Shown here: positions 1,869-20,664 of the stretch, piece after piece
Layout of the letters: every line of letters starts with the position of its first letter
Numbering within the stretch: position 1 is the stretch's first letter
Virus record (IMG/VR): IMGVR_UViG_3300025889_014311
Coordinates: 1-24,679 of that record
From: a virus
Length of the DNA: 24,679 nt
Strand: one strand, 5' to 3'
The notes under the pieces: model-generated
Told to the model about the DNA's origin: nothing
The model's input: the letters and a program-made list of their open reading frames with translations, nothing else
Database searches by the model: none
Program-made: the position numbers and the translations under genes

Positions 1869-1877
1869 TGGTATAAT
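1869..1877 (+). promoter_or_regulatory. Extended -10 promoter TGGTATAAT
   Basis: A perfect TATAAT (1872-1877) with the TG of an extended -10 lies one base after the terL stop codon. There is no recognisable -35 hexamer about 17 nt upstream. Only 8 nt separate it from the ATG at 1886, so transcription would begin at or next to the start codon. It is one of five such sites in the window. The motif is seen directly; promoter activity is inferred. Confidence 0.65.
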
Positions 1878-1885
1878 ATTTGCGT

Positions 1886-2044
1886 ATGCCAACAAAGAAA
1901 AAAACTACCAAAACAGTAACCAAGAACGTGGTTGCTAAAAAAGAAGAAAAAGTTGATTTCCTCGCCACTGGAGCAGCTCCAGAACTTCATCCAGAGTTTG
2001 ATCCAGATATACCCGTGAGAAAACAACGACATTTAATTCGTTAA
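1886..2044 (+). CDS. 52-aa lysine-rich small protein between terL and portal
   Basis: A short reading frame of 52 codons filling the gap between terL and the portal gene. Its N-terminal 20 residues are almost all Lys, Thr and Val (starting MPTKKKTTKTV). The rest is acidic and proline-containing, ending RKQRHLIR. It has its own TGGTATAAT box 8 nt before the ATG, and its stop ends one base before the portal ATG, an operon-like fit that supports a real gene. There is no Shine-Dalgarno. Function is unknown; the lysine-rich start recalls the first protein of the window but I see no clear homology. Confidence 0.6.
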   Translation: MPTKKKTTKTVTKNVVAKKEEKVDFLATGAAPELHPEFDPDIPVRKQRHLIR

Positions 2045-2045
2045 A

Positions 2046-3854
2046 ATGAGTGTTACCACCTTACGTCAAATTAATCACGAACTTGAGTCTTTCAAAACGA
2101 GAGATATTCAAGTCGTGCCTGGTCTTCGTTTCTCACAGTACGAGACGATTAGAACCATCCACTTCTATTACAACTCTAAGTTTGAAACGGGACCAATTGA
2201 CGATGAGGGTGATCGCAAATACTTTTTAAATATTGTAAAGAACCCGTGTAAGGTGTTCTCTAAAGCGATTGATTTTGATACCAAGAATATTCGTCTCCTC
2301 ACTGTCGGTGGTGGTGACCCCTTAAAGACCTGGTTCATGGAACGGGACTTGAAGTTCTGGATGCGGGACAAACAATTTGGTCAAGTCCTCAATCGTATTT
2401 TCAAAGAACTGCCAATTTACGGCACAGTCGTTCTCAAGATCGTTAACGGGACACCGTACTTTGTAGACCTTCGTAACTTTATTGTCGATCCATCTGCAGA
2501 AGACCTTGAGTCAGCCAGTTACATAATTGAAAAATACAACTACACCATTCCTCAGTTCCGTAGAGTCGCTAAAGAAATGAAGTGGCCAGAAGCTAAGGTG
2601 GAAGAAACTATTGCTGAGTTTCGCAAGATGAAGGACCACTCTCATATTCGGGTGTATGAACGATACGGGGAATTGAACATGACCCCCGATACAGATGAAA
2701 ATAACTGGAGCTACCGTCGGGTGTACATTGCTGACGTGGGGGTTGATGAGTTAGACAACTACGGTCGTATTCAAGTCCATCACGCAGGAGTCGAACTCAG
2801 TAACGAAGAATTTTCACCTGAGAAATTAACCAATACCTACTGGGAATTTCATGCTGAAAAGACTGCGGGTCGGTGGTTAGGAATTGGTGTCGTTGAAGCT
2901 CTGTTTGAACCACAAATTAGACAGAATGAACTCTCTAACCTGCAAGCCAAGACCTCCTACTGGGCAGCCCTTCGTGTCTTCCAAACCAGGGATGCGGGGA
3001 TCAACCGTAACCTTCTCTCAGATGTCCGTAACGGTGAGATCATAAACGTTGACTCCGAGATTACTCAGATTGACATGAGTGACCGTAACCTCGCCTTCTT
3101 TAATCAAGACGAGAACAAGTGGATGCGGAACCGAGACGAACTGACGTTTTCATACGATGTGGTCCAGGGTGAACGACTCCCCGCAGGAACGCCTCTCGGT
3201 TCAGCTGAACTCGCAGTCTCACAAACCCTCTCTTACTTTGAAGGGATTCAAGAGAACGTCGCGATGCGGGTAAAGGAAATGCTCTACAAAGTAATCATCC
3301 CGCAGTTCTCTAAAGAGATGTCTACCGAGCATCACCTTCGTTTAGTTGGTCAAGATTTAGATAAATATGTGGAACTGGTCAGAAATGAATTTGTCTTTAC
3401 AGAAGTGATCCGCCTTGCAGTTGGAGGTGTCTTTGTAACGGAAGAGGAGAAAGAAGCCATTGGTCTTGCCGTCCAGGAATCAATCAAGCAGGGCAACGAA
3501 AAGTTACTTACGGTTCCCGTGTCGTTCTACAAAGATATTAAATACGATGTGGAGATTGATATTACTGGAGAAAGCATTGATACCCGAGTCCGTTCAGCTA
3601 CTTTGTTTGCCATTCTCCAAGCCATTACTGCCGACCCAACTGTCTTAGAAGATCCGATCAAGCGCAAGTTCCTCTACACGATGGGCGAAGACGGTGGTAT
3701 AAATATGAATGATTACTTGGACTCAATTCCTGCCACTCCAAGTACTGTAGCTTCGCCTGAAGAACAAGTAAATGCTCGAGGTAGAGCAGGTGGTGGAGTT
3801 TCCGCCCCAGCCCTTGGACAACAAATCCCAGGTCCACAAATGCAAACATTATGA
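2046..3854 (+). CDS. Portal protein
   Basis: The dodecameric ring at the capsid vertex through which DNA enters and leaves. It has 602 residues, in the range of larger portals, and sits directly between terL and scaffold/capsid genes as expected. The central region around residues 275-300 (RWLGIGVVEALF then QIRQNELSN) has the conserved portal pattern of a glycine-rich turn followed by the long helix. A helical C-terminal part (about 390-540) fits the crown/wing helices. The last 40 residues are a flexible Pro/Gly/Ala tail. It starts one base after the preceding small gene and has no Shine-Dalgarno. Its stop overlaps the next start (ATGA). The call rests on synteny plus sequence character. Confidence 0.88.
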   Translation: MSVTTLRQINHELESFKTRDIQVVPGLRFSQYETIRTIHFYYNSKFETGPIDDEGDRKYFLNIVKNPCKVFSKAIDFDTKNIRLLTVGGGDPLKTWFMERDLKFWMRDKQFGQVLNRIFKELPIYGTVVLKIVNGTPYFVDLRNFIVDPSAEDLESASYIIEKYNYTIPQFRRVAKEMKWPEAKVEETIAEFRKMKDHSHIRVYERYGELNMTPDTDENNWSYRRVYIADVGVDELDNYGRIQVHHAGVELSNEEFSPEKLTNTYWEFHAEKTAGRWLGIGVVEALFEPQIRQNELSNLQAKTSYWAALRVFQTRDAGINRNLLSDVRNGEIINVDSEITQIDMSDRNLAFFNQDENKWMRNRDELTFSYDVVQGERLPAGTPLGSAELAVSQTLSYFEGIQENVAMRVKEMLYKVIIPQFSKEMSTEHHLRLVGQDLDKYVELVRNEFVFTEVIRLAVGGVFVTEEEKEAIGLAVQESIKQGNEKLLTVPVSFYKDIKYDVEIDITGESIDTRVRSATLFAILQAITADPTVLEDPIKRKFLYTMGEDGGINMNDYLDSIPATPSTVASPEEQVNARGRAGGGVSAPALGQQIPGPQMQTL

Positions 3855-4084
3855 TTTCAGAAAAGCATCAAATGCTTTTACAGCAACTGTCAAAGACAGC
3901 CTACGGTGAAGCGTTATTAGAGCTGTATCACGAAGAAATGGAGGATCTCAAAGATGTGACCAAGTGTACATCTTGGGAAGATACGGTCGGGAGACAACAC
4001 GCTGTCAAGACGTTAACTCGGGTGATGTCTTTTATGTTAAAGGACAAAACTCCACAAACAAAAAGTAAGTCACAATACACGTGA
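3851..4084 (+). CDS. 77-aa hypothetical protein between portal and scaffold
   Basis: A small, mostly helical, charged protein (77 aa) that I do not recognise. It has no signal peptide, membrane segment or metal-binding cysteine pattern (only one Cys). It overlaps the portal stop by ATGA, so it is probably made by translational coupling. Its own TGA stop forms the first bases of the TGATATAAT box at 4082-4090. The position between portal and scaffold suggests an accessory head-assembly or head-completion role, but this is positional inference only. Confidence 0.6.
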   Translation: MISEKHQMLLQQLSKTAYGEALLELYHEEMEDLKDVTKCTSWEDTVGRQHAVKTLTRVMSFMLKDKTPQTKSKSQYT

Positions 4085-4098
4085 TATAATTTTCACGT
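4078..4098 (+). promoter_or_regulatory. Extended -10 box inside an inverted repeat, upstream of scaffold
   Basis: TGATATAAT (4082-4090) lies in the loop of a perfect 6-bp inverted repeat, ACGTGA (4079-4084) and TCACGT (4093-4098). Nineteen bases from 4078 match the site at 13033 with a single mismatch. The TGA of the box is the stop codon of the upstream gene. Transcription would start near 4097, giving a leader of about 25 nt before a 9-codon reading frame. Promoter function and any regulator binding are inferred. Confidence 0.65.
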
Positions 4099-4120
4099 AC
4101 AAGGGACTAAACCCGTAAAA

Positions 4121-4150
4121 ATGAATAATAGACTAAACTATTCAAAATGA
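4121..4150 (+). CDS. Nine-codon leader reading frame coupled to the scaffold gene
   Basis: ATG at 4121 opens a nine-residue frame (MNNRLNYSK) whose TGA overlaps the scaffold ATG as ATGA. The scaffold gene has no Shine-Dalgarno, and this tiny frame would deliver ribosomes to its start. The same ATGA arrangement joins several full-length genes in the window. An 8-base direct repeat GACTAAAC occurs just before the frame (4105) and inside it (4131). That the leader is translated is inferred; so short a frame could also be chance. Confidence 0.3.
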   Translation: MNNRLNYSK

Positions 4151-4746
4151 ATCCAGAAGAAAAGGAGAACGACACTCCACAAAACGAATCGGAAGTAGTA
4201 GAGCCAGAGTCTACTGAGGAAGTTGTTGAAGAGGGGGTAGAAGAGTCTACTCCTACAGACAACAAAGAACTACAATCTGCACTTGCTCAAAAGGAGCGGT
4301 TCAGAGATAAGTTCGAAAAAGCCGAGGCTGAAAGAAGAGCTTTAGAAAAAAAGCTCAATCAGTCTATAACTGGGGGACAAGTAGAAGAAGCAGCCCGTAC
4401 TGTTGAAGAATTTATCGACATCAGTACGTCTCTTGACGGCCTTGACCAGAGAGAGAAAGCTTACCTTGCTGAACAGCATCGTTTGTCGGGCAAACCACTC
4501 AAGGACATTAGGGAGAGTGAAGACTTCCAACTCTGGGATGAAGCCTATCGGACTCGTTTAGAGAAAGAAGCAGCTCTTCGTCCGAACGCAACTCAGGTTG
4601 TTGAGGACGAGCCACAAACTTTGCAGCAACGGTTGAGAAACGCTACCGCAGCAGAGAAAGAAAAGATTTTAACGGAAGCAGGTTTGTATAAATCCCCTCG
4701 TCCAAAAACAGATCGAGTTGATATCGGGAAAAAGATATCAGGATAA
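4147..4746 (+). CDS. Capsid scaffolding-like protein
   Basis: A 199-residue, Glu/Lys-rich, low-hydrophobicity protein immediately before the major capsid gene, the classic place for a scaffold. The first 40 residues are extremely acidic. Residues about 45-75 are a likely coiled coil rich in Lys, Glu and Ala, and the C-terminal 30 residues are basic (PRPKTDRVDIGKK), fitting the coat-binding helix of scaffolds. It resembles the so-called phage minor structural/scaffold proteins that precede HK97-fold coats. No protease motif is seen, so the scaffold is probably not a protease fusion. Its stop TAA lies within a -10-like GATAAT ahead of the capsid gene. Confidence 0.78.
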   Translation: MNPEEKENDTPQNESEVVEPESTEEVVEEGVEESTPTDNKELQSALAQKERFRDKFEKAEAERRALEKKLNQSITGGQVEEAARTVEEFIDISTSLDGLDQREKAYLAEQHRLSGKPLKDIRESEDFQLWDEAYRTRLEKEAALRPNATQVVEDEPQTLQQRLRNATAAEKEKILTEAGLYKSPRPKTDRVDIGKKISG

Positions 4747-4754
4747 TAATTATC
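4742..4754 (+). promoter_or_regulatory. Palindrome with -10-like GATAAT before capsid gene
   Basis: GATAAT at 4742-4747, one base, then ATTATC at 4749-4754 make a perfect 6-bp inverted repeat ending one base before the capsid ATG at 4756. GATAAT is one base from the -10 consensus and ends 8 nt before the ATG, the same spacing as two of the five clear sites. It lacks the upstream TG, so it is a weaker promoter candidate. It could also be an operator or simply AT-rich sequence. Confidence 0.4.
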
Positions 4755-4755
4755 A

Positions 4756-5700
4756 ATGACTCAAGTTATCACTAACGATGTAAGTGCCATCCAGCCAGAG
4801 ATATGGTCATCTATGGTGCAGGTACCGTTGTACAAGAGTCTTGTTGCTATGGAGGTTGCCAGCCTACGTCTATCTGAAACCGTTAAATACGGTGACACGG
4901 TACACGTACCACGATTTGGTGATCTTTCAGCACAGACCTATACACCAGGTACTACCATCACAGCGACTGCTCAAGACTGGGCGTTCGATACTCTTGTAGT
5001 ATCAACGTACAAGCACGTTACATTCTATGTGGATGATCCACGATCACTCACAGTGAATGTAGACCAAGCTCGTGAACTAGCTACTGAGGCTGCCTACCAG
5101 CTCAAGGATGTCATCGACCAGCACGTTTTTGCAAACGTTACTGGTGCAGATGGTTTCGTTGCAGCAGACGATGCTGATATTCTTGGCGGAACAAATGCCA
5201 AGCCAGTATCTGCAGGTACCGCCAACATCATCAACATCTTCGCTGGAGCCCGTAAGGTGCTTCGTAACCGAAATGTTGAAGAGACAGGTGACTGGTGCGC
5301 TGTTGTAACCCCAAAGATTGCTGCCGACATCGAGATCAAGGCTGCAAACGTGGGCTTCAACGTAGCTGACGCAACCTTGCGAAATGGCTACGCTGGAGAC
5401 TTCATGGGCTTCCAAGTGTACATCTCAAACAACTTGCCATCAGGTAAGATGACTGCTATTGCACCAGGTGCAGGAGGCGTTACCGCTACTGGACTTTCAG
5501 CAACTACTGGTCTATCTGTCTACTTTGGTAAGAAAAACACCATTGATGTAGTAATGTTGGCTGAACCAGCTCTCGAAATTCGCAAGAAGGACGATATGAT
5601 TGGTTCTAACTTCATTACCTGGACGGTATATGGTTCTAGCGTGTTCACCAAGAACCGCTCACGAGGAATCAATATGCCAATCGGTGCAGGATTCTATTAA
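4756..5700 (+). CDS. Major capsid protein (HK97-fold coat)
   Basis: The main shell protein, 314 aa. The N-terminus has the pattern common to P22/N4-type coats: PEIWS at residues 14-18 in the first helix, then the E-loop-like stretch YGDTVHVPRFGDL at about 45-57 followed by a Thr-rich beta segment. A long helix (about 103-128) is the spine helix. The C-terminal half is Ala/Gly/Val/Thr-rich, as expected of A-domain strands, and ends with a conserved-looking basic Arg-Gly segment. It follows the scaffold by 9 bases and is followed by a stem-loop. There is no cleavable propeptide of the HK97 protease type. No Shine-Dalgarno precedes the ATG, which is odd for the most abundant virion protein. Confidence 0.9.
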   Translation: MTQVITNDVSAIQPEIWSSMVQVPLYKSLVAMEVASLRLSETVKYGDTVHVPRFGDLSAQTYTPGTTITATAQDWAFDTLVVSTYKHVTFYVDDPRSLTVNVDQARELATEAAYQLKDVIDQHVFANVTGADGFVAADDADILGGTNAKPVSAGTANIINIFAGARKVLRNRNVEETGDWCAVVTPKIAADIEIKAANVGFNVADATLRNGYAGDFMGFQVYISNNLPSGKMTAIAPGAGGVTATGLSATTGLSVYFGKKNTIDVVMLAEPALEIRKKDDMIGSNFITWTVYGSSVFTKNRSRGINMPIGAGFY

Positions 5701-5711
5701 ACCGAATTGGT

Positions 5712-5750: not shown

Positions 5751-5773
5751 CTGGGCACAACTAACTTAAATTT

Positions 5774-6007
5774 ATGTTTGAAAATCTAATACAAAAATTC
5801 AATCGCTTTAGAGCGAGAAGGGCACTCATCAGTCGTTACCTTTACTTAAATGAGGTAGACAAACTGATGGAGGAATATACCACGGCTAATCTTCTTGAGG
5901 GTGGTTCAGAAGAATTTCTTAAACAGGGTCGTAAATCTTTATCTGAAAACCAAGGAAGGCAAAGAGAGCAGACTAAATTAATAGAATTTCTAAGAAAAGT
6001 GAAATGA
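5774..6007 (+). CDS. 77-aa basic helical protein at the start of the sugar cassette
   Basis: A 77-residue, predominantly helical protein with an Arg-rich beginning (FNRFRARRALISRYLYL) and a charged remainder. I do not recognise a family and see no membrane segment. It follows the capsid gene by 73 bases containing the stem-loop. Its TGA overlaps the ATG of the next glycosyltransferase gene (ATGA), so it is the first gene of the cassette transcript as far as can be seen. It could be a small head protein left at the junction or a cassette accessory protein. There is no Shine-Dalgarno and no TATAAT box. Confidence 0.6.
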   Translation: MFENLIQKFNRFRARRALISRYLYLNEVDKLMEEYTTANLLEGGSEEFLKQGRKSLSENQGRQREQTKLIEFLRKVK

Positions 6008-7119
6008 AAATTTTATTTATGCTCGATAGCCAGATGGCATTTATGTCAGGTATCTGGTCCCATCGGTGCGAATCTCCATCTTTAGCGCTGGGCAAACGTG
6101 GTCATGCGGTAAAGCAAGTAGCAATTGGTAATGAAATACCTGAAGAACTTATGGAATGGCCAGATGTGGTCATTTTTGGTAGGTCATACCCTACTCAGTA
6201 CACTCCAATTAAGTTCATGGAGGACTACAAAAAACGCGGTAAGCGCGTATTGTATGACATGGATGATGATTTTTGGTCAGTAGCTGATGATAATCCTTCA
6301 GTTCTTGTCTCAAATGCCCACAAAGATCAATACGAAGGCATGATCAACGTAGCCGATGCGGTGATTTCCCCTTCCCATGTCCTCCTAAAGAAGTTTAGAA
6401 AACACTTCAAGAAAGACGGGTTCTTCTGTCCTAATGGGATTCCGTTTGATGAATATCTAGAACGTCCACACGACAATGCAGATACGCTAAAGATCGGGTA
6501 CATGGGGGCCGCGTCCCACTGGAAGGACCTTCAATTAATTGGTGAGGTGATTGCTGAGTTGAATAAGAAGTATGACTTTCTCTTTACTATTTATGGATTA
6601 ACGGGGGAACCATTAGAATCTGCCATCTATACCTACAATAAAATTCTGGCTCATAACTTCCAACCTGAAAAACGGAAGTATCACCAGGCAGCAATAGACT
6701 TCTACAAACAATTAGAAGGAACCAGAATGTGGCACGTGCCGTTTATGCCACCAGAACTCCATCCTCGGACCCTACGCATGTGCGACCTAGACATTGGCCT
6801 GGCTCCACTTGAAGACACTGAATTTAACCGTGGAAAATCCAACATTAAATTCTACGAGTACGCTGCGGTAGGAACTATGACAGTCGCTTCAGATGTGCTT
6901 CCGTATAAAGATGAGGTAAATTATCTCGTCAAAAACACTCATAAGGATTGGTATAACAAGTTAGAGAAGTTAATCTTATATCCTGATCTGCGAAAGAAGA
7001 AACTAAAGGAACAGCAAGACTGGGTGAAAAAACATCGTTCTCTTGAGGCTATCGGCATTGATTGGGAATTAGCGTGTCAACGGCCAGGAGGTCTGAAGGT
7101 AAGGAATCAAGAACGATGA
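6004..7119 (+). CDS. GT-B glycosyltransferase, GT4-like
   Basis: A cytosolic sugar transferase of 371 aa with the two-domain GT-B outline. The N-terminal half opens with the strand MKILFMLD and includes VLYDMDDDFW at about 81-90, a pattern common in GT4-type enzymes that bind peptidoglycan or polysaccharide acceptors. The C-terminal nucleotide-binding half has GYMGAASHWKD (about 164) and the signature LDIGLAPLED ... KFYEYAAVG (about 262-288), where the second glutamate of the EX7E-like motif would contact the sugar nucleotide. Donor and acceptor cannot be read from sequence. It overlaps its neighbours at both ends (ATGA at 6004 and at 7116), so it is embedded in the cassette transcript. Confidence 0.85.
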   Translation: MKILFMLDSQMAFMSGIWSHRCESPSLALGKRGHAVKQVAIGNEIPEELMEWPDVVIFGRSYPTQYTPIKFMEDYKKRGKRVLYDMDDDFWSVADDNPSVLVSNAHKDQYEGMINVADAVISPSHVLLKKFRKHFKKDGFFCPNGIPFDEYLERPHDNADTLKIGYMGAASHWKDLQLIGEVIAELNKKYDFLFTIYGLTGEPLESAIYTYNKILAHNFQPEKRKYHQAAIDFYKQLEGTRMWHVPFMPPELHPRTLRMCDLDIGLAPLEDTEFNRGKSNIKFYEYAAVGTMTVASDVLPYKDEVNYLVKNTHKDWYNKLEKLILYPDLRKKKLKEQQDWVKKHRSLEAIGIDWELACQRPGGLKVRNQER

Positions 7120-8042
7120 AAATCCTGGCTTTTGACTTCAACAATATCTTAGATGAGGTAATCGCGGAACTAACCAATCGTGGGCATGAGCTAATGAACC
7201 ACCGCAAACCTGACGGCACCCTTATTAACTGGAAGCAAGCAGACAGAATAGTGGTTTGGCAAGAAACAGAGTTGGGTGGCTGGAAGGATCAGATTCGGGA
7301 GTTTCAAAAGGCAGGGATTCCTGTGATCTTGATGCAACATGGAAGACGAGGAACTTCCCGCATCTTCCCTCCTTTTAACGAGGAACTCGTCTCTGATCGG
7401 GTCTGTGTTTGGGGAGAAAATGATCGTAAACGACTAGAATCATGTGGTGTACCCTCTGAAAAGATTTTTGTGACGGGAACGCCAATTGTGAAGGGAGTAA
7501 AACCTCGCTTAGAACATGATGGAATTAATGTGGTCTTTTCTCCTGAACATTGGGATGTTGATGTAATGGAGAATTTAATTGTGGCAGGAGCCTTACGCAA
7601 GGTGCCTGACATAAACGTGGTGACCAAGATCCTCGAAGGGGAACACAACCCGAGTGAGTACGACAACCCAATTGCCTCTAACCGTCAGTTGCCTGGTCAC
7701 TTGAATATTTGCTACCAAGTGTTGCAGAAAGCTGATGCGGTAGTGGCTATTTCAGAGAGTACCTTTGAACTCCTCGCTGAAGTCATGGATATTCCAGTAA
7801 TCATTGCTGATATCTGGGTACCGAAAGCGTGTGCGGGTGATGCACGGTACAAAGAGTACCAACGAGAATATTCTCCAGGGTGTGCTATGGAAAAGGACAT
7901 GGACAAACTAGGGGACACAATTAAAAGACACATCAACAACCCAGAACTTCTAAGACAGCAAAGACAAGAAATCGGTGTCTTAGATGGGGGGACCAATATA
8001 GACAATCCTGTTGATGAAATAATTAAAGTCATTCTACAATGA
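7116..8042 (+). CDS. GT-B-fold enzyme of the epimerase / glycerophosphotransferase type
   Basis: A 308-aa enzyme. I take ATG 7116 because it makes an ATGA overlap with the previous gene and begins the beta strand MKILAFDFN; an in-frame ATG at 7062 would add 18 unlikely residues. Features are LMQHGRRGTSR (about 70-80), EKIFVTGTPIV (about 114-122) and the C-terminal VAISESTFELLAEVMDIPVI (about 208-227). This order is shared by UDP-GlcNAc 2-epimerases, CDP-glycerol glycerophosphotransferases and related capsule enzymes. With NeuB and NeuA-like genes downstream, a NeuC-type 2-epimerase role is attractive, but the DSGG-type signature of true epimerases is not evident. A glycosyl- or polyol-phosphate transferase is equally possible. 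Confidence 0.65.
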   Translation: MKILAFDFNNILDEVIAELTNRGHELMNHRKPDGTLINWKQADRIVVWQETELGGWKDQIREFQKAGIPVILMQHGRRGTSRIFPPFNEELVSDRVCVWGENDRKRLESCGVPSEKIFVTGTPIVKGVKPRLEHDGINVVFSPEHWDVDVMENLIVAGALRKVPDINVVTKILEGEHNPSEYDNPIASNRQLPGHLNICYQVLQKADAVVAISESTFELLAEVMDIPVIIADIWVPKACAGDARYKEYQREYSPGCAMEKDMDKLGDTIKRHINNPELLRQQRQEIGVLDGGTNIDNPVDEIIKVILQ

Positions 8043-8464
8043 GGCCACTTGAAGGGGTTACCCCACCAGAAGTAGCAGACCTAATCTCGGATGTCATAAA
8101 GGACAAAGTAGTGTGTGACGTGGGCTGTGGCGAAGGAACCTTTATGGAGTCTCTTGCCAAACACGCCAAACACGTGATTGGGATAGAAGAGGAAGAAGCC
8201 TGGGCTTATGCAGCAGCAGCAAAAGGGTTTGAAGTGCTTCACAGTAGTTCTTGGTTTCAACCATTACCCAAAGCAGATGTGTACTTCCTCTGGAGTAAAG
8301 ATGCAATGGGGGTGTATCTCAAAGCGAAGTATGAGGGAACCAAAGGAACCTTCGTTTTTGGCCATACTGTTAGACCTTCTCTTACTAACTTAATTAACTC
8401 ACTAGACGGGGAAAAAAGAGAAATCCCCGACAGTATCTGGTGGGTGTTTATCACTGAACTATGA
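8039..8464 (+). CDS. Small SAM-dependent methyltransferase
   Basis: A 141-aa class I methyltransferase-like protein. The SAM-binding motif I is VCDVGCGEGTF at about 25-35, followed by an acidic residue at the end of strand 2 (IGIEEE, about 48-53). A motif IV-like strand lies at PKADVYFLW (about 78-86). It is shorter than most stand-alone enzymes (often 180-250 aa), so the C-terminal strands may be minimal. Within this cassette the likely role is modifying a sugar or sugar-nucleotide intermediate, but the substrate is unknown. It overlaps its neighbours at both ends by ATGA (8039-8042 and 8461-8464). Confidence 0.72.
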   Translation: MRPLEGVTPPEVADLISDVIKDKVVCDVGCGEGTFMESLAKHAKHVIGIEEEEAWAYAAAAKGFEVLHSSSWFQPLPKADVYFLWSKDAMGVYLKAKYEGTKGTFVFGHTVRPSLTNLINSLDGEKREIPDSIWWVFITEL

Positions 8465-9764
8465 AACAAATAATTGAAGACCTCTACCCGATGAATCGTG
8501 GTTTGTTGGGGAAGGATATGACAATGCCCTGGAGTACCTCAAACAACTCATTAACTTAGATGTGTTGGAGTTTCCTTCTGGCACTGAAGTCGGTAATTGG
8601 ACCGTACCTGAAGAGTGGGTAGTCCGAGATGCTTGGGTAAAATACAAAGGTAAAAAGATACTGGACTACAAGAAACAACCCCTCTCTTTAGTGGTGGGGT
8701 CACTTCCGTTTAAAGGAATGGTAACTAGGGATGAACTAGCTGAACATCTTCATGTAGCTGATCATCGACCAGATGATACGTTGTATGAGTTTAAGTTCTA
8801 TGAGAAGGACTGGGGGTTCTCTATTCCTTGGAACAAGGTCTTTAAAAAGGGTAAGGATGGGGTGACAAAACAAGCTCTCAAAGAAGGAGAGTATGAAGTC
8901 TTCATTGATACTGAATACAAACCTGGGGTAATGAAAGTAGCTACCCATACCATTCTGGGAAAGACCGACAAAGAGATTTTGTTGTTTGCTCACCTTGACC
9001 ACCCATTCCAAGCGAATGACAACCTCTCAGGAGTCGCTGCCTTAGTCGATTTAGTAAAGAAGATCAAACCACTCTCGTTTGAACACACCATCAAATTAGT
9101 CTTCTGCCCAGAAACAATTGGGAGTAATGCGTATGTTGCTACGCAGAACTTAGACAATGTGTCGTTCGTAATTGCCTTAGACATTGTGGGTAATTCAAAT
9201 GAGGAAGGATTCCTCTTCCAAAAATCGTTTGACACTTCTCACCGAGTCAACGCAGCTGCTCACTTAGCGTTGCGGGGAATGGGGGAAGGCTACCGACAAG
9301 GTATCTTCCGTAGCACGATTGGTTCAGATGAGTATGCCTTTAACGATCCCGCCATTGGTGTCCCAGGGATTCTACTTACCTCTTATCCGTATGATGAGTA
9401 CCATACGTCAGCTGATACCCCAGAGAAGATTGATTACAAAATGATAGAGAAAGCCCAACGGTTTGTCTTAAAAACTATTGAGTACTACGAAAAAGACTTC
9501 ATTCCCCAGAAAATGTTTACTGGCCCATTGTTCCGTAGCAAGTATGGAATCCAAACTCCTGGAAAGCAATTGAATCTCTCTTGGGACTACTTGATTTATT
9601 CAATGGACGGTGAAAGAGCATTTACGGATTTATGTGTAGAGTTTGGACTTAACTTTGAACATACCTATGATTTCATCGAAAAACTTGTCGAAGGAGGAGC
9701 CGTTGGTCGCTGGCCTATTGTTAGTCAAGGAGACTTCCAAGAGATTGCCAGGGAAGAATACTAA
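8461..9764 (+). CDS. DUF4910 (M28-like aminopeptidase-fold) protein, disrupted by a frameshift near 8505
   Basis: This family is a zinc-peptidase-like fold common in surface-polysaccharide operons; its true reaction is unclear. The long intact frame runs from about 8478 to 9764, and its earliest start-like codon is GTG 8562. Counted from there, zinc-site motifs are HLDHPFQANDNLSG (144-157), GSDEYAF (254-260) and EYHTSAD (279-285), then a winged-helix-like C-terminus. The usual N-terminus is encoded just upstream in another frame: ATG 8461 (ATGA overlap with the previous stop) reads DLYPMNRGL. Re-reading one base near 8505 continues as VGEGYDNALEYL straight into the long frame. Without the shift the 8461 frame stops at a TAG (8557-8559). 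This means a one-base deletion, an assembly error or recoding; the local sequence is not a standard slippery heptamer. Confidence 0.8.
9691..9699 (+). promoter_or_regulatory. Strong Shine-Dalgarno setting a TTG start for the CMP-sugar synthetase
   Basis: AAGGAGGAG sits 3-5 bases before TTG 9703, inside the end of the preceding gene. It is the best Shine-Dalgarno match I find in the window, where almost all other starts have none. It supports TTG 9703 as the start rather than the upstream in-frame ATGs at 9643 and 9667, which would add residues unlike the family. Because these bases also encode Glu-Gly-Gly of the upstream protein, chance cannot be ruled out. Confidence 0.5.
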
Positions 9765-10278
9765 AGACTTTAACGGCAAGCCAATGTTTGTCTGGAACGT
9801 CTTGAAGTGCGTGGATATATTTGACATGACGTATGTCAGTTCAGACAGTGAATCTATCCTTAATATGGCTCGATTACACGGGGCTAAAGGAATTAAACGT
9901 GGGGATGATCTGATTGGTGAAACTCCTGATATTCCCGTCTACCAACACGCTATTGAACACATGCCTACAAATGTGACAGGAGTGGTTGCCGTTCATGCCA
10001 ACAACCCTACTCTTGAGAAGAACCTCATTGCCCTAACCAAACGGTTGGTGGAGGGGGGCGCACAGGAAGTAATGACCTGCAAACCGATGGTGCATGGTGA
10101 TGAGTACCACGCCCAACACAATCCCATATATGGTTCTATTCGTGGGCTCTCGGTAGAGAGGATTCGAAATTATCCAGATCCCTATCGTCCAAATCCAGAT
10201 GTACTAATTGTCGATAGTTCAATTGAAATTGAAACTCAGGAATCTTACGATCAAGCTCTATGTCAGTCTCAGTCATAA
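9703..10278 (+). CDS. CMP-sialic-acid-synthetase-like cytidylyltransferase (NeuA family)
   Basis: It would activate a nonulosonic acid with CTP to the CMP-sugar donor. From TTG 9703 (Shine-Dalgarno match before it) the protein is 191 aa and opens with the nucleotide-binding pattern LLLVKETSKRLPGKNTKDF, the RLPGKN at residues 14-19 being the family hallmark. VSSDSE at 45-50 and VHANNPT at 97-103 match the usual strand and substrate-loop positions. IVDSSIEIETQESYDQA near the end fits the conserved C-terminal Asp/Glu segment. It is somewhat shorter than typical NeuA (about 220 aa). An in-frame ATG at 9643 would give 211 aa but overlaps the previous gene by 122 bases. Specificity (sialic, legionaminic or other keto-sugar) cannot be told. 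Confidence 0.82.
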   Translation: MVAGLLLVKETSKRLPGKNTKDFNGKPMFVWNVLKCVDIFDMTYVSSDSESILNMARLHGAKGIKRGDDLIGETPDIPVYQHAIEHMPTNVTGVVAVHANNPTLEKNLIALTKRLVEGGAQEVMTCKPMVHGDEYHAQHNPIYGSIRGLSVERIRNYPDPYRPNPDVLIVDSSIEIETQESYDQALCQSQS

Positions 10279-10901
10279 TTACAAATTACAACAATGGAAT
10301 GTATTTGGGTAGAGCCATTCGCAGCTGCCTAAATCAGTCTCTCAAAGATGTTGAAGTTATAGTTGTTGATGATTGTTCAACCGATGATAGTCGGGCAGTT
10401 ATTCAAACGATGCCAGTAGTACCAGTGTTGTTACCAAAGAACGTGGGGGTGGCAGCTGCCAGTAACGAGGGTATACGCAAAGCGACAGGTGAATACATTA
10501 TTCGGGTCGATTCAGATGATTATGTGAACCAGAATACCTTTTTGTTTTTGTCCCAAATCTTAGAGTGGAATAAAGATATTGGGTTTGTCTACACAGATCA
10601 CCTTAAAGTGAATGATAAAGAACACGTAATTGGTCGGGGGAATCTCAATACCCTTGACTTGTTGTATAGACATGGTGCTGGTATCATGTTCCGCAAGAGC
10701 TATCTGGAGGCCATTGGCCTGTATGATGAGAAACTCAGAAATGCTGAAGACTACGATCTACTCAAACGGTACATTAAAAACTTTAATGGGTACCACCTCC
10801 CCCTTCCTCTTTATCGGTATCGTCAACACGATACAAACATGACTAATGATGAAGAAGAACGTAAACGGTGGGAATCATTTGTTGATGAAAATAGGAAATA
10901 A
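10260..10901 (+). CDS. GT2-family glycosyltransferase
   Basis: A 213-aa GT-A enzyme with the standard opening SVIITNYNNGMYLGRAIRSCL, then VIVVDDCSTDDS (about 33-44) for nucleotide binding. The metal-binding DxD is within IIRVDSDDYV (about 79-88). NAEDYDLLKRY at about 162-172 matches the ED catalytic-base motif of inverting GT2 enzymes. No membrane segments are present, so it is a soluble single-domain transferase. It overlaps the cytidylyltransferase by 19 bases and the NeuB gene by 17, typical of this packed cassette. Donor sugar is unknown. Confidence 0.88.
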   Translation: MSVSVIITNYNNGMYLGRAIRSCLNQSLKDVEVIVVDDCSTDDSRAVIQTMPVVPVLLPKNVGVAAASNEGIRKATGEYIIRVDSDDYVNQNTFLFLSQILEWNKDIGFVYTDHLKVNDKEHVIGRGNLNTLDLLYRHGAGIMFRKSYLEAIGLYDEKLRNAEDYDLLKRYIKNFNGYHLPLPLYRYRQHDTNMTNDEEERKRWESFVDENRK

Positions 10902-11931: not shown

Positions 11932-12542
11932 CATCAGAAGCTGCCAAGGCAGATATGTTTGAAATAAAGAAAGTGTTTGACCACTTTGGAGTCCCAATAT
12001 TTCTCACGTATGGAGCTTTACTCGGTATTTATCGAGATGGGGATTTTATTCCTTACGATGATGATATTGATCTGTGTATTACAGAACCAATTGATCACAA
12101 AACCAGAAAGGCGATTGGGTGGAAACTGTATGATCTGGGCTTTACTGGCCAACCGATCTCGTTTCGAGTGTATGACCGCATGGAGCCAGCTGAAATGGGG
12201 TATAACGGGGATGGGGAAAGTGGCATTATTGTCTGCCAAAAACGTATTAGAACCACGTTGTTTTTCTTCAAGGAAGAACCGTGTGATATACACGACAGGG
12301 ATATGGTGTGTATTCCTAAATACAAAGGGTGGCCATTAATATCATGTCCTGCCAAGTTTTTTGACAAACCTGGCAAAATTACATTTAAGGGGGAGACATT
12401 TATTACTCCCCATCCAATTAAAGAATACTTAGAATATGTCTACGGCAAAGACTGGCGCAAGCCGATCAAAGGGAAACACGCGAAGCAGTACCTCGAAACC
12501 CACCCGTCTAAAAAACAAGAAATTTTGGGAGGAGAATTATAA
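11907..12542 (+). CDS. LicD-family nucleotidyl/phospho-transferase
   Basis: LicD/fukutin-type enzymes transfer phosphocholine or a polyol-phosphate from a CDP-activated donor onto a glycan. The hallmark segment is complete: LTYGALLGIYRDGDFIPYDDDIDL (about 33-56) with the DDDID metal site. The C-terminus keeps the family ending EYVYGKDWRKPIKGKHAKQYL. The first ATG overlaps NeuB by 25 bases; ATG 11955 is an alternative that keeps the whole domain. The predicted product is 211 aa. The intact frame ends at 12542, but the downstream methyltransferase frame begins inside the last 107 bases, so a frame problem at the junction near 12510 is possible. The acceptor may be the glycan built by this cassette. 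Confidence 0.85.
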   Translation: MEPLPEEITSEAAKADMFEIKKVFDHFGVPIFLTYGALLGIYRDGDFIPYDDDIDLCITEPIDHKTRKAIGWKLYDLGFTGQPISFRVYDRMEPAEMGYNGDGESGIIVCQKRIRTTLFFFKEEPCDIHDRDMVCIPKYKGWPLISCPAKFFDKPGKITFKGETFITPHPIKEYLEYVYGKDWRKPIKGKHAKQYLETHPSKKQEILGGEL

Positions 12543-13044
12543 GCACCACCACTTTACTGACCCAAGTTCATTTGCTTTATACTGTCTCCACCATATACAA
12601 GGCCCCACTGTTGATTTGGGGTGTGGGGATGGGAGAGATTTATATCTCTTCAAAAAGAATGGAATCCCCGCTCATGGAGTAGATGCTTCATATGAAGCTG
12701 AGTTCATCATTAAACAAGACGTGGAAAAATACATGGAGGAAAATGAGGCTCCTGACAATGTGTATGCTCGTTTCTTTTGGCACGCAGTTCCCCCAGAGAC
12801 ACAACAGAAGATATTGGAGTGGACCAAGAACATGCTCTTTATTGAAGCCAGGACGACTAAAGATAAACCAAAAAATACTCATGGGGCGCACAAGCGGTGG
12901 TTAGTGGATACCAAAAAGTTAGCTCGGGACTTAGACGATCATGGATTTGAAGTAATCCGTTTTATAGAAAGAAAGGGGCTTTCCCCGTATCAAGGAGAAG
13001 ACCCTCATTTAGTGAGAGTCATCGCCAAAAAGCACGTGATATAA
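12436..13044 (+). CDS. SAM-dependent methyltransferase overlapping the LicD gene
   Basis: Class I methyltransferase with motif I TVDLGCGDGRDLYLF at about 58-72 and GVDASYE at strand 2. The C-terminal GLSPYQGEDPHLVRVIAKK recalls small methyltransferases of polysaccharide clusters. The only usual start codon in this frame, ATG 12436, adds a Ser/Thr/Arg-rich leader that is just the other-frame reading of the conserved LicD end. Family-like sequence begins at KNKKFWEENYK, right after an A6 run (about 12510-12515). Either translation starts at 12436 with a 107-base overlap, or a one-base change in the A-run hides a proper start or a LicD fusion. Its stop TAA lies inside the next TATAAT box. Confidence 0.75.
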   Translation: MSTAKTGASRSKGNTRSSTSKPTRLKNKKFWEENYKHHHFTDPSSFALYCLHHIQGPTVDLGCGDGRDLYLFKKNGIPAHGVDASYEAEFIIKQDVEKYMEENEAPDNVYARFFWHAVPPETQQKILEWTKNMLFIEARTTKDKPKNTHGAHKRWLVDTKKLARDLDDHGFEVIRFIERKGLSPYQGEDPHLVRVIAKKHVI

Positions 13045-13051
13045 TTATCAC
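13033..13051 (+). promoter_or_regulatory. Extended -10 box in an inverted repeat, 6 nt before ATG
   Basis: TGATATAAT (13037-13045) is centred in the perfect 6-bp inverted repeat GTGATA/TATCAC (13036-13041 and 13046-13051), which ends on the base before ATG 13052. The whole 19 bases equal the site at 4078 except for one base. The upstream gene's TAA stop is part of TATAAT. Only 6 nt separate the box from the ATG, so the mRNA should have no leader. It would launch the tail-gene block after the sugar cassette. Activity and regulation are inferred. Confidence 0.7.
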
Positions 13052-13750
13052 ATGACAGTATCCGAGTTAGATAATGATGTAGACTTTTTGTGCGGTTCTA
13101 CGTCTGCTTCATACCCAGTCGCTGACAAGCGAAGAAACATGAACATCGCGTATCAAGATGTGGCTCGTTTGATTTGGGAAAGTGATGGTGGGTGGCGATA
13201 CGATGATTCCAATGCAGCTAATTTACCGAGGGCAACCACCGATTTAATAAATAATCAAAATGATTATCGGTTACCTTCAACCGCCCAAAGAGTCAACCGC
13301 TTAGAAGTATTAGACAGTGCTGGTAATTACATAAAACTGAATCCTCTTGATGAACAAGAGGTCACTACTGGGCTACCTGAATTTTTAGGGGGTCAAGCTG
13401 GAACTCCTCTTTACTATCGTTTGATTGGTCGTTCAATTCTTCTTTACCCAGCCCCAGCGTCTGGGTATGTAACGTTAGCAGCTGGGCTCCAGCTTTACAT
13501 GGATCGAGACGTTACTGGATTAGCGGTAACAGCAACCACTACTACACCAGGGTTTGCTACCCCGTACCATCGTATTTTGTCATACGCAGCTGCCATTGAT
13601 TTCACTCAAGATGATCGTCAAAGACAGTTTCTGATTGTGCAAAAAGATAGGTTAGAACAAGGTATGACCAGGTTCTATTCCAAGCGGGCTCCAGAGATAA
13701 AAACAAAAGTAAAACCAGGAGGCAGAAAGAAGTGGAGAAATTATACGTGA
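13052..13750 (+). CDS. Putative head-tail adaptor/neck protein
   Basis: A 232-aa protein placed as the first tail-module gene after the sugar cassette. The first 65 residues look helical with a Trp/Asp-rich segment (ARLIWESDGGWRYDDSN). A beta-rich middle follows, holding the pattern NNQNDYRLPSTAQRVNRLEVLDSAG (about 68-92). The basic C-terminal tail (KTKVKPGGRKKW) could touch DNA or the portal. The phrase about values decaying to a YxLP-type strand followed by RVxRLEV is familiar from small connector-type proteins of uncultured podoviruses, and I infer an adaptor or neck role on that basis and position. The transcript is predicted to be leaderless. Confidence 0.55.
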   Translation: MTVSELDNDVDFLCGSTSASYPVADKRRNMNIAYQDVARLIWESDGGWRYDDSNAANLPRATTDLINNQNDYRLPSTAQRVNRLEVLDSAGNYIKLNPLDEQEVTTGLPEFLGGQAGTPLYYRLIGRSILLYPAPASGYVTLAAGLQLYMDRDVTGLAVTATTTTPGFATPYHRILSYAAAIDFTQDDRQRQFLIVQKDRLEQGMTRFYSKRAPEIKTKVKPGGRKKWRNYT

Positions 13751-13774
13751 GCCTGGGCGTAACTACACATAATT

Positions 13775-16178: not shown

Positions 16179-16187
16179 TGTTATAAT
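16179..16187 (+). promoter_or_regulatory. Extended -10 box TGTTATAAT, 8 nt before ATG
   Basis: TGTTATAAT begins on the base after the fibre stop codon. TATAATT and AATTATA (16182-16188 and 16190-16196) form a 7-bp perfect inverted repeat around one base, and the repeat's last base is the A of the next ATG. A TTGTCA at 16162-16167 resembles a -35 but is only 14 nt away. The predicted mRNA for the gene at 16196 is leaderless. Activity is inferred. Confidence 0.65.
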
Positions 16188-16195
16188 TAAATTAT

Positions 16196-17785
16196 ATGGC
16201 CAAGGTTAATTTAATTAAAGATGGGTCCTTTAGACGAGTGACTGTAGGTTCAGATACTTACAAAAGACTTGTTGGTCAGGGTTACGCCGTAGATGGTGGC
16301 GGTTCTTTAAAGACAACCACGTCTAACACAGGTTCAACTTCTGGTTCTACCCAAACTTCTAGTGGTGGATCTAAGACTCGGGTTATTCGATATAATGGTC
16401 AAGAATATCCTTCTTTAGAAGCAGCTTACGCTGCTAGGGATGCTACTAGTGGCACAACTACCCGAACATCTGCGGGACAAGAAACAGTAGAAGACACAGT
16501 GGCGAGAGCAAAAGCATTACTTGGTTCAGCCTATGATCCTACTACCCCAGCTCCCGATCAACAACGGATGCAAGAGATAGCCAGTCAGCCTTTTATACGG
16601 GATGAAGTACGGAGGCAATACCAAGCCTCTCTACCGAGAACGACTGCGCCAACAAATATTGGTCAGGTCAGTCCGTTCTACCAACCGACCAACATTCCTT
16701 CTATTACTCCACCTTCTGGAGATATTTCCTTTGCGACTGCGGGAACGGCAGGATTACAGGGTCAAGCAGCGGTTGCCCAAGATTTCTATAATCAAAAGTT
16801 AGCAGCAGAACAAACCCGACAGGAAGAAAAATCTGGTTTATTGCAAAGTTTCCTTGATAATGTCACTAGCCCCGCTGAAGCGAGAGAGCAAGCGATAGCA
16901 GATTCAGGATTTGATTTTGGTGAATATTATGCTGCTCAGGAAAGAGGGTTTAAGGAGATTGAATCTCTCTCTAATGAATACAACCGAACGGTGGAAGCAA
17001 AAGACCAGCAAATTGCTCAGACCCAAGACAAACTAGCGAGTAACAATTTCATAAATAATCAGGTAGCTCAGATTGAAAGAAATGCTGCGCCTAAACTCAA
17101 TCGTCTGTCAGCTGAGATCAATGCCAAAGCAGCAATCCTACAAGCACAACAGGGTAATTTTGCTGAAGCTCAGAAGTACATTAACCAAGCGGTAGATGAT
17201 GCGACAGCTGAGACAAAGTTCCAGTACGATATGTATGCGCTGGTTGCTCAAGAGAATGAAGACAACTTTAGTCGGATTCAATCTATTTACACAGAAGCCT
17301 ACAATGCGTCAATGGCCTTGGCTCAAATTGAATACGAGCAAGACCGAGCTGATAAGGAGGCAATTGGCAATTTAATGTTGGAATACCCAAGTGCAGGGAT
17401 TGATATTTACAATGACACGTTAGATGAAGCGTACCGTAAAGCAGGGTTAGTTCCACCACAAGTAGCTGGTGGGTCGGGTGGTGCAGGTGGTGGGTTCACT
17501 CTTTCTAGTAGGACTCAACAAGTCTTAGACGGCTTTACTTCTCTGACTGCGTTAACCCCAACTGAAGCTGCAAAAGTAAGAGATGAATTATACGCTCAAG
17601 GATTTGGCTCAGATGAACCGCCAGAGTGGTACGTAGAATATTTACAAGACGCTTGGAAGCAAAGCATTTTACCTTCAGTCGTAAAGGAAGAATGGATTAA
17701 GTATAGAGATCAAGTAATGCAAGGTGGTACTGCTCCTGCCACAACTGGAGGGGGAAGTGAATTACCAGGTTTTGATGAACTATAA
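16196..17785 (+). CDS. Long virion protein, probable internal/ejection protein
   Basis: A 529-aa protein without recognisable enzyme motifs. The first 80 residues are Gly/Ser/Thr-rich with a small beta domain (YNGQEYPSLEAAYAAR). Residues about 180-410 are Ala/Gln/Glu-rich and helical, likely long coiled coils (AAKLN, EINAKAAILQAQQGNFAEAQKYINQ). A Gly-rich linker (about 423-432) leads to a compact C-terminal helical part with Trp residues. This composition and its place before an even larger protein resemble the ejection proteins stored inside short-tailed phage heads. Its stop overlaps the next ATG (TAATG). I do not recognise the family, so the role is inferred from composition and order. Confidence 0.55.
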   Translation: MAKVNLIKDGSFRRVTVGSDTYKRLVGQGYAVDGGGSLKTTTSNTGSTSGSTQTSSGGSKTRVIRYNGQEYPSLEAAYAARDATSGTTTRTSAGQETVEDTVARAKALLGSAYDPTTPAPDQQRMQEIASQPFIRDEVRRQYQASLPRTTAPTNIGQVSPFYQPTNIPSITPPSGDISFATAGTAGLQGQAAVAQDFYNQKLAAEQTRQEEKSGLLQSFLDNVTSPAEAREQAIADSGFDFGEYYAAQERGFKEIESLSNEYNRTVEAKDQQIAQTQDKLASNNFINNQVAQIERNAAPKLNRLSAEINAKAAILQAQQGNFAEAQKYINQAVDDATAETKFQYDMYALVAQENEDNFSRIQSIYTEAYNASMALAQIEYEQDRADKEAIGNLMLEYPSAGIDIYNDTLDEAYRKAGLVPPQVAGGSGGAGGGFTLSSRTQQVLDGFTSLTALTPTEAAKVRDELYAQGFGSDEPPEWYVEYLQDAWKQSILPSVVKEEWIKYRDQVMQGGTAPATTGGGSELPGFDEL

Positions 17786-20652
17786 TGGCTGTTTCAGACT
17801 ATGTAAAAAACTTTTTTGAACCTACTCCTGATGTAAGAACTAGGGATGTATTACGTGAAATTCCTGGAACCATATCGTCAGCAGCTGGAGCTACTAGACG
17901 ATTTTTATTGCCTTCCAGAGCTGAAGAGTTTGAAAGGATGCAACAGGAGGCGCAGCAATCTTTGCGCTTTACGCCTGAGCTTGGTCAAGAAATTGATCGT
18001 AGAATCGGGGCTATGGGTCCAGGAGCTGCAACGCTTGAGCAATTTCTTAGTCAAACTCCAGTAGATCCTTTTGGAGTTGTTGGTAGAACAGGGGCTGTGT
18101 TTAGGAGAACAGGAAAAGCACTAATCAATCGAATTTCCAAGGAAACGTCAGAAGATGCAGTGAAAGTGTTTTTACGAGAGTCTGGCTTAGACCTCTCAGA
18201 AGGAGTGGTCAATAAATTTGCGCCACGGTTAACTAAGATTAGTGACCCCAATACGATTGCTAAAGTAATTAACTTAGCAATCAAAGAATCCCCAGTTAGT
18301 AAACAAGCTGCTAAAAAAATAAGTGACAGTATTAGTACCCGTCTTACCAGAGAACGAGGGTACGTTACTTCAGCTAGAAAAGTGGTCCCCACCGCTGAGA
18401 AGTTGGGTGGTCAATATGTCCCCAGAGCTACTAATCCTCTTGCAATTAAGGCTAGGAATTTAGTTAGTGAAAACGCTTTTGAAGCGGAGAGAATAGTACG
18501 AGAAGAACCATTAAGTGACCGAACTGTAGCTTTAGGATCAGAACTTATTAAAAAATTAGGAGATGATATTGCAGCAGAAACTGATCTGTTACGCAGGGCT
18601 TCATTAGAAGACAAAGTAGCTACTATTGCTAATGACTTAGCTACTCGGTTAACTGAAGTGGGTAGAACAATCCAAGCTGCATCTATCCTAGGGCGGTTAA
18701 CCCCAGAGGGACAGTTACGTTTTGCTGCCAAAGAGATCCAAAAATTTAATATTAAAAATCCTGGCAGAAAAATTCCAGAACTCACAGGGGAACAATCAGC
18801 CTACATCTTAAATCAATCAAAAGAGATCTTGGCATTACCTGATGGTTTAGACAAAGCCAAGCGTTGGCAGAAACTGCAAGATTACATTTCTGATTTAGTT
18901 CCTACCCCCTTTATAAAAAAAGCAGTTGCTACTTGGAAAGCAGGGTTACTCACAGGTATCAAAACTTCTGGACTTAACTTGTTTTCAAACCTTACACACT
19001 TTGCCTCAGAAATTGCCAAGGATGCCCCCGCAGCCGTCGTTGACAGTGCAGCTGCATTATTTACAGGGGAAAGAACGAAAACTCTCACTGTGCGTAGAGC
19101 GTTTGATGGAATCAAAGAGGGATCAATAAAGGGGGTTCGTTACTTTGCGACTGGTTTTGATGAAAGAAATGTTGGAGCCAAAATTGATTACAAACGAGTT
19201 AACTTTGGTAAAGGTAAGGTTGCAAAAGTATTTCAAGTGTACACCGATACAGTCTTTCGAGCTTTAGCTGTCGGTGACCAACCTTTCTATTACGCTACAT
19301 TAGCTCGGTCTTTAATGGATCAGTCACTGGCAGTTGCTAAAAACAAAGGACTCAAGGGTAAACAAATGGTGGAAGAAGCCTATAAACTAGCTGAAAATCC
19401 TACTGAAGATATGTTGCGGGCAGGAGTTTCGGATGCTGCTACAGCGGTCTTTATTAATGACACCGCAGCAGGGCGAGCTGCTCGTCAAGTACAGACTTGG
19501 TTTGGAGGTGTAGGAGAATTTATCATCCCGTTCGGGAGAACCCCATCTGCGGTTGCTATGCAAGCGATAGCGTATTCACCAGTAGGCGCAGCAGCGTCTA
19601 TCATCAGGAATATTGGTAAGGGTAGATTTAACCAACGTGATTTTTCACAAGGTCTAGGTAGGGGTTTGTCTGGTACTGCCCTTCTTACCATCGGTATGGA
19701 GCTGGCTAAAAATGACCGCGTAGCTCCAGCCTACCCAGTGGGTGATGAGAAAGAACAAAAGTTACAAGAAGCTGAGGGAGTTAAAAATGGATATATTCTT
19801 GTTGATGATAAATGGCGTAGTCCGTTAGTGCTTGGTCCAGCTGGGGTGGTGGTTCAAGCAGGAGGGTTGCTCCAGCAAGCATTAGAAACTGAAGGGGGAC
19901 CAACTGATGCAGCAGTTAAGGCATTTGCAACAGCAGGGAAAGCATTTCTTGAACTCCCTTTCCTTACTGGACTCGAAGATGCTATCAATGCAATTTCTAA
20001 CCCAGAACGTTACGCAAAAAGTTATCTCCCAGGTTTGATTGCCTCCTTTGTCCCAACTATCATTTCAGATGTAGCAAGGGCAACTGATCCTGAAGAAAGA
20101 AGAACGTCAGCTCCTTCTTTGATCGAAACTATTGGAACCAGAGTCAAGAGTAGAATCCCAGGTCTAAGAAAAAATCTTGAACCTAGAGTCAACATCCTTG
20201 GCTACCCAGTAGAGAGGGCTGGTAATGTGGTAGAAGTAATGTTTGATCCTACTCGACCTTCTAAGACAATGGAAACTCCTGTCACCATAGAATTTAGACG
20301 ACTCCATGATGAAGGGTTCCGAGTATCACCAACTGCATTAGGAAATAAAAATGGGTATGAAGTGTTATCAGCTCCTGAAAATACACGGTTGTGGCAAATT
20401 ACAGGCACGTTAATTGATCAAAAAGTAACGGCGTTAATTGCCAATGAAGCGTATGCTAATGCAGACGATAGTGATAGAGCAAAAGCAATAGATAAAATCG
20501 TAGAAAAATCTAAAGAAGTAGCGAGGGCAACGATGGTAGTTGAACTAACTGTTGGTTTGGAAGGTGAAGAACTAAGCAAAAAACTTAGTGAATTAAAAGA
20601 AGGTAAACTCATAACCAAAGCGGTGTACAAAAAGTACTTAGAAATCAGATGA
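17785..20652 (+). CDS. Very large virion protein with a polyvalent-protein-like domain
   Basis: The largest gene (955 aa). Residues about 190-320 (RGYVTSARKV ... GRTIQAASILGRLTPEGQLRFA) look like a segment that recurs in large phage polyvalent proteins. Residues about 380-600 (TWKAGLLTGIKTSGLNLFSN ... FGRTPSAVAMQAIAYSPVG) look like a second part of the same kind. Several moderately hydrophobic stretches occur (for example GLSGTALLTIGMEL and LGPAGVVVQAGGLLQ), as expected of a protein that enters or crosses the host envelope. The N-terminal 150 residues are helical. No lysozyme or nuclease motif is seen. A role in DNA ejection, delivered with the genome, is inferred. The gene is coupled to the preceding one. 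Confidence 0.6.
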   Translation: MAVSDYVKNFFEPTPDVRTRDVLREIPGTISSAAGATRRFLLPSRAEEFERMQQEAQQSLRFTPELGQEIDRRIGAMGPGAATLEQFLSQTPVDPFGVVGRTGAVFRRTGKALINRISKETSEDAVKVFLRESGLDLSEGVVNKFAPRLTKISDPNTIAKVINLAIKESPVSKQAAKKISDSISTRLTRERGYVTSARKVVPTAEKLGGQYVPRATNPLAIKARNLVSENAFEAERIVREEPLSDRTVALGSELIKKLGDDIAAETDLLRRASLEDKVATIANDLATRLTEVGRTIQAASILGRLTPEGQLRFAAKEIQKFNIKNPGRKIPELTGEQSAYILNQSKEILALPDGLDKAKRWQKLQDYISDLVPTPFIKKAVATWKAGLLTGIKTSGLNLFSNLTHFASEIAKDAPAAVVDSAAALFTGERTKTLTVRRAFDGIKEGSIKGVRYFATGFDERNVGAKIDYKRVNFGKGKVAKVFQVYTDTVFRALAVGDQPFYYATLARSLMDQSLAVAKNKGLKGKQMVEEAYKLAENPTEDMLRAGVSDAATAVFINDTAAGRAARQVQTWFGGVGEFIIPFGRTPSAVAMQAIAYSPVGAAASIIRNIGKGRFNQRDFSQGLGRGLSGTALLTIGMELAKNDRVAPAYPVGDEKEQKLQEAEGVKNGYILVDDKWRSPLVLGPAGVVVQAGGLLQQALETEGGPTDAAVKAFATAGKAFLELPFLTGLEDAINAISNPERYAKSYLPGLIASFVPTIISDVARATDPEERRTSAPSLIETIGTRVKSRIPGLRKNLEPRVNILGYPVERAGNVVEVMFDPTRPSKTMETPVTIEFRRLHDEGFRVSPTALGNKNGYEVLSAPENTRLWQITGTLIDQKVTALIANEAYANADDSDRAKAIDKIVEKSKEVARATMVVELTVGLEGEELSKKLSELKEGKLITKAVYKKYLEIR

Positions 20653-20658
20653 TATAAT
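20650..20658 (+). promoter_or_regulatory. Extended -10 box TGATATAAT, 6 nt before ATG
   Basis: TGATATAAT starts with the TGA stop of the 955-aa protein gene. ATGA/TCAT (20649-20652 and 20659-20662) flank TATAAT as a small inverted repeat. Six bases separate it from ATG 20665, so the fibre transcript would be leaderless. No -35-like hexamer is visible. It is almost the same box as at 4082 and 13037. Confidence 0.68.
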
Positions 20659-20664
20659 TCATAT

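Follow-up and report, generated by a model that had tools for sequence, protein, structure and literature searches.

Sigma-70 promoters of the extended -10 type carry a TG at -15/-14, and a -35 element is dispensable in them. The late promoters of phage T4 also consist of a -10 element only, stand before late genes with the consensus TATAAATA, and need phage-encoded factors. It is already known that bacterial leaderless genes can be marked by a -10 box beside the start codon: in TA-led leaderless genes, start codons are preceded, at a distance of about 10-12 bp, by a -10-like TANNNT signal that is read as a promoter and gives a leaderless mRNA (Zheng et al. 2011, PMC3160421), and a phage lambda mRNA starting directly at its AUG is cited in the same work. 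The boxes described here resemble the TA-led signal in placing a -10-like hexamer by the start codon (at four sites the box ends 6-8 nt short of the ATG) and in being both above random and positionally clustered, but differ in that the TG-extended form dominates, no -35 accompanies it, and the carriers are a phage family and Patescibacteria, a group absent from PMC3160421 by the names searched. Unlike in ordinary extended -10 promoters, the +1 is predicted at the start codon, and the box also serves as stop codon for the gene before it. Lambda provides one particular leaderless transcript, whereas here a recurring layout is predicted at several structural-gene units.

The window, the whole stretch of 24,679 nucleotides analysed here, is a 24.7-kb linear IMG/VR entry from a tailed phage with all genes on the + strand. 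It encodes a terminase large subunit (terL; 299..1867, +; phrog_2, E 3e-29), a small gene (1886-2044, +) followed by a portal-like protein (2046-3854, +), a gene in the scaffold position directly 5' of the capsid gene (4147..4746, +), the major capsid protein (MCP; 4756..5700, +; phrog_267, E 5e-34), a 232-aa tail-region gene with a predicted leaderless start (13052..13750, +), and a collagen-like tail fibre gene (from ATG 20665, +). The scaffold-position protein has no family match, and its C-terminal part resembles the homologue on the related contig L045. Besides terminase, portal, capsid and tail genes, the window carries a set of sugar-related genes. As read from the sequence, these form a run between the capsid and tail genes (6004-13044) that is unusual in a phage and includes glycosyltransferase-like, NeuB-like and CMP-sugar synthetase-like genes; an M28 peptidase/DUF4910 protein is also encoded within this run. 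Genes within each putative unit overlap or nearly abut. No Shine-Dalgarno motif was seen upstream of the main window genes inspected, and scans of the window returned no Rfam match and zero tRNAs.

The motif TGnTATAAT stands at 1869, 4082, 13037, 16179 and 20650, as the original prediction had placed it, with five occurrences on the + strand and zero on the - strand. This excess is real: dinucleotide shuffles contain 0.67 boxes on average and none of 100 reaches five, nor do any of 2000 first-order Markov simulations on the + strand, of which just 60 contain even one box-then-ATG arrangement on that strand. The hexamer is TATAAT at all five sites and the flanking bases differ. The box TGGTATAAT (1869..1877, +), upstream of the small gene, lies 8 nt before the ATG at 1886, with a predicted leader of 0-2 nt, and TGTTATAAT (16179..16187, +) abuts the upstream stop and likewise lies 8 nt before an ATG, at 16196. 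The remaining three boxes are all TGATATAAT: the copy at 13037..13045 (+) contains the TAA stop (13042-13044) of the ORF 12436-13044 and precedes the ATG at 13052 by 6 nt, that at 20650..20658 (+) supplies with its TGA the stop of the ORF 17785-20652 and precedes the ATG at 20665 by 6 nt, and that at 4082..4090 (+) supplies with its TGA the stop of the ORF 3851-4084 and is not leaderless. Contact with the upstream stop, claimed for all five, thus holds at four, and at 1869 a one-base gap follows the terL stop (1865-1867). Because the box itself supplies stops (TGA when n is A, and TAA), with TGATATAAT carrying both in two frames, it can overlap the end of the preceding gene in this compact genome. 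The + strand holds four other TATAAT strings (14168, 16391, 16787 and 17781) rather than the two that had been counted by eye.

The predicted lack of a clear -35 also stands, since hexamers at 15-19 nt reach three of six matches or fewer; 16179 has a TTGTCA, but with a spacer of 14 nt. A fixed-spacing -35 was likewise absent from the related phages and the host genomes described below. A scan with a TTGACA consensus promoter gave 22 matches, below the shuffle mean of 33, and was set aside. Dyad symmetry is present at 4079-4098 (ACGTGA...TCACGT) and 13036-13051 (GTGATA-TAAT-TATCAC), which may reflect operator overlap or chance; an operator based on these dyads was dropped, as the other boxes do not share them and the relatives do not clearly do so.

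Among related phages, comprising 70-odd contigs (727 kb in total) found by MCP and TerL scans, the motif recurs at homologous positions, with a strand bias and a spacing peak. TGnTATAAT occurs 112 times along the genes and 11 times against them, with 27 occurrences of the reversed-pattern control, and the corresponding non-redundant counts after collapsing similar contexts are 86 v 7 v 19 v 21; plain TATAAT has no strand bias (422 v 424). Of 54 terL loci, 27 have an exact box no more than 100 nt past the stop of that gene, where about 0.0017 per locus would be expected. Boxes also precede four of five orf3 homologues (at 8-9 nt), 8 of 22 homologues of the scaffold-position gene (48-65 nt from the start) and 9 of 14 homologues of the 232-aa tail gene, five at 6 nt and four at 23-24 nt, so that leaderlessness at the tail gene is not strictly conserved. 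No box was found in the relatives before terL (0/33), portal (0/58), orf5 (0/40) or MCP (0/60), and a homologue of the gene at 16196 was not findable. Spacings of exactly 6 nt between box and ATG are the commonest, with 16 sites (13 of them non-redundant); spacings of 7 and 8 nt have 8 sites each, and those of 12, 16 and 20 nt have none. The TG is present in 14 of 22 phage TATAAT-N6-ATG sites, compared with 1.3 expected. Shine-Dalgarno motifs are not enriched in these phages (8.7% vs 10.3% in a control stretch). Judged by sequence conservation, the boxes appear to be conserved promoters heading a few transcription units.

Patescibacteria, tiny cells with reduced ribosomes, form a very large group of bacteria with hardly any cultured members, and their transcription and translation initiation is largely inferred. 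Searching bacterial genomes with TerL gave two loci, one of them in a Portnoybacteria MAG whose terminase is related to that of the window (52% identical over the whole protein, 60% over the core). This locus (contig L080, 4233-19434) is a prophage of the same family that interrupts comEC, whose upstream part corresponds to positions 1-33 of the Competence model and whose downstream part to positions 32-267. The downstream junction carries two serine recombinases, and the cellular genes nrdD and ndk flank the locus, which is an integrated prophage within a Patescibacteria genome. A sigma-70 region 4 protein is among the prophage's own products, and its coding strand has no exact box. The TerL search across 380 genomes of the phylum and 23 of the order found this as the sole prophage. 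The other TerL locus occupies an isolated contig of 3.6 kb, which is assigned to a 'Deltaproteobacteria' MAG and could be misbinned. The related terminase in the Portnoybacteria prophage makes Patescibacteria the likely hosts of the family, and we infer that the window phage itself infects Patescibacteria.

The box-and-ATG arrangement is abundant in the genomes of these likely hosts. TGnTATAAT-N{5,8}-ATG was found in 20 of 20 relatives of the prophage-bearing MAG. Across 287 genomes of the phylum, there are 2242 copies of TGnTATAAT-N6-ATG and 152 of its reversed control (a 14.8x excess, 8.6 per Mb), and the pattern outnumbers the control in 255 genomes; the corresponding figures for 148 genomes of a comparison phylum are 239 and 95 (2.5x; 0.52 per Mb). 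Both totals were tallied from transcribed tables. The pattern is extremely frequent in some Patescibacteria (G144, G192, G280 and G288), reaching 100 and 86 copies within roughly 0.7 Mb. In the comparison phylum, the single genome with a high count (G442, 22 copies) owes it to repeats of TGGTATAATTTGTTCATG, mostly near contig ends, which are probably due to a transposon. In pieces of three pattern-rich genomes (G192, G144 and G288), the spacing again peaks at 6 nt (24/186, 14/113 and 6/80 genes, respectively), the TG is present in 51 of 63 TATAAT-N6-ATG sites compared with 3.9 expected, and these sites carry no -35 information. T is most frequent right before the ATG at these host sites, which fits a transcription start at the A. 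Shine-Dalgarno motifs are in use as well in the same three genomes (24-44% vs about 5%), but hardly at all in close relatives of the prophage host (10-15% vs 7%). These patterns suggest that leaderless extended -10 initiation is one class among host gene starts and that the phages use the same class, their layout being apparently that of their likely hosts and borrowed from them.

The boxes are thus very probably extended -10 promoters read by the host, heading phage units, with leaderless transcripts at four of them and a leadered one at 4082. They have a TG one base before TATAAT and no -35 at normal distance, and the main host sigma factor (sigma-70/sigma-A type) would read them as extended -10 elements for which a -35 is unneeded. 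Each box would head a phage transcription unit. At the boxes with 6-nt spacing (13037 and 20650), the +1 would fall on the A of the ATG; at those with 8-nt spacing (1869 and 16179), it would fall on the A or at most 2 nt before it, so that a leader of 1-2 nt is possible at two of the four. The first gene of a unit would be translated from a leaderless mRNA, and the overlapping or nearly abutting genes downstream probably by coupling. The sequences show directly the motif, its strand bias, its conserved positions, the spacing peak and the enrichment in the host clade, and we infer the transcription starts, the sigma factor and the leaderless translation.

It is improbable that the boxes are phage-specific late promoters requiring a phage-encoded sigma factor or RNA polymerase, as with T4 gp55. 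Like T4 late promoters, they lack a -35, many of them precede morphogenesis genes, and the prophage relative encodes a sigma-region-4 protein. However, their consensus is TGnTATAAT and not TATAAATA, host chromosomes abound in the same architecture, and a Sigma70_r4 search of 16 phage records (four of 40-44 kb), which may be incomplete, gave zero matches. Boxes also occur outside the late block: in near-complete relatives, they stand by HNH-like, lysin-like and metallophosphatase-like genes, and in G001, G002 and G004 they precede non-morphogenesis genes that are part leaderless and part leadered, many boxes outside the morphogenesis block having leaders of 20-70 nt. The boxes are therefore not restricted to morphogenesis genes. 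The original prediction of a leaderless extended -10 architecture for late genes accordingly divides into two parts. The architecture is strongly supported by the conserved positions, the 6-nt peak in phage and host, the T before the ATG and the lack of Shine-Dalgarno excess in the phages, but its late specificity is unsupported, because boxes occur outside the morphogenesis block and the pattern is general in Patescibacteria genes.

The box could instead be an AT-rich ribosome-binding signal for translation initiation, which would suit phage genes without Shine-Dalgarno excess and clades known to use AT-rich non-SD signals. This too has a low probability, as the sites match the exact extended -10 consensus, including the TG at -15/-14, only some gene starts have a box, and homologous genes also have it 20-70 nt from the ATG, a distance that suits a promoter and not a ribosome-binding site. 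Chance or composition, whereby AT-rich gene junctions would yield TATAAT-like strings near ATGs and stops would naturally overlap TGA or TATAA, is a negligible prospect given the shuffles, the strand bias of TGnTATAAT that TATAAT alone lacks, the peak at a single exact spacing, and the conservation at homologous positions (27 of 54 after terL, none before terL, portal or MCP).

Under the preferred reading of host-read extended -10 promoters, the box at 4082 drives a leadered transcript, with a predicted leader of about 56 nt ahead of the gene at 4147 and the MCP gene. This leader contains two hairpins. The first, GGG-ACTAAA-CCC (4103..4114, +), has a 3-bp stem and is followed by G-TAAAA and an ATG at 4121; the second, AATAG-ACTAAA-CTATT (4127..4142, +), has five pairs, mostly A-T, and lies 4 nt before the ATG at 4147. 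Both share the loop ACTAAA and stand just before an ATG, the first of which opens a short upstream frame of 9 codons (4121..4150, +; ATG...TGA) whose stop overlaps the ATG of the gene at 4147. In about 15 distinct relatives, the same place is taken by a hairpin whose 4-bp stem closes the hexaloop AC(T/A)NAA; about 5 nt separate it from an ATG downstream. Scaffold-gene leaders with such a hairpin are those of the window (4091-4146) and of contigs L008, L013, L014, L019, L022, L029, L034, L036, L038-L041, L045, L055 and L056. Tandem hairpins are likewise present in L008, L019 and L040, and L005 is the window's own phage. Different hairpins occupy the same leader position in other relatives.

The pattern with a perfect stem occurs 28 times forward, 3 times in reverse and 5 times in reversed sequence, counts that are unbiased, whereas the percentage of pairing is biased by the choice of hairpin sequences for pairing. 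Both sides of the stem change in 27 cells compared with 8.8 in shuffles (17 sequences), and the same loop is genuinely combined with a variety of stems. A stem that covaries and a loop that is conserved, next to a start codon, characterize translational-operator hairpins and are found here; from its sequence features the hairpin is a plausible candidate translational operator for scaffold or capsid. The leader hairpins at 4082 would probably control how the scaffold/capsid operon is translated. Some capsid genes have RNA operator hairpins, for example the MS2 coat operator. The present hairpin resembles these in being small and covarying and in having a conserved loop next to the start codon of a particle-assembly gene. 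It differs in belonging to a dsDNA tailed phage, in its hexaloop ACtNAA, in being sometimes tandem and in having no Rfam match.

In the literature covered, to which preprints and most subscription journals do not belong, the sole link found between Patescibacteria and leaderless initiation is a remark, in PMC12641178, on YchF promoting leaderless translation, and neither the phage use at conserved units nor the Patescibacteria-wide TG-extended form was found. More tentatively, and with somewhat less than even confidence, the leaderless extended -10 mode might be ancestral and phylum-wide in Patescibacteria and have been copied by phages for their structural blocks, with the hairpin-controlled leadered scaffold/capsid operon representing a new operator class. 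The signature, which fits on one line, predicts both promoters and exact start codons and would thus improve gene-start annotation in Patescibacteria and their phages. In addition, it gives a hint as to which phages belong with Patescibacteria, and leaderless initiation becomes testable in the few cultured members of the group. For the phages themselves, the leader hairpin is a candidate site at which capsid assembly is controlled.
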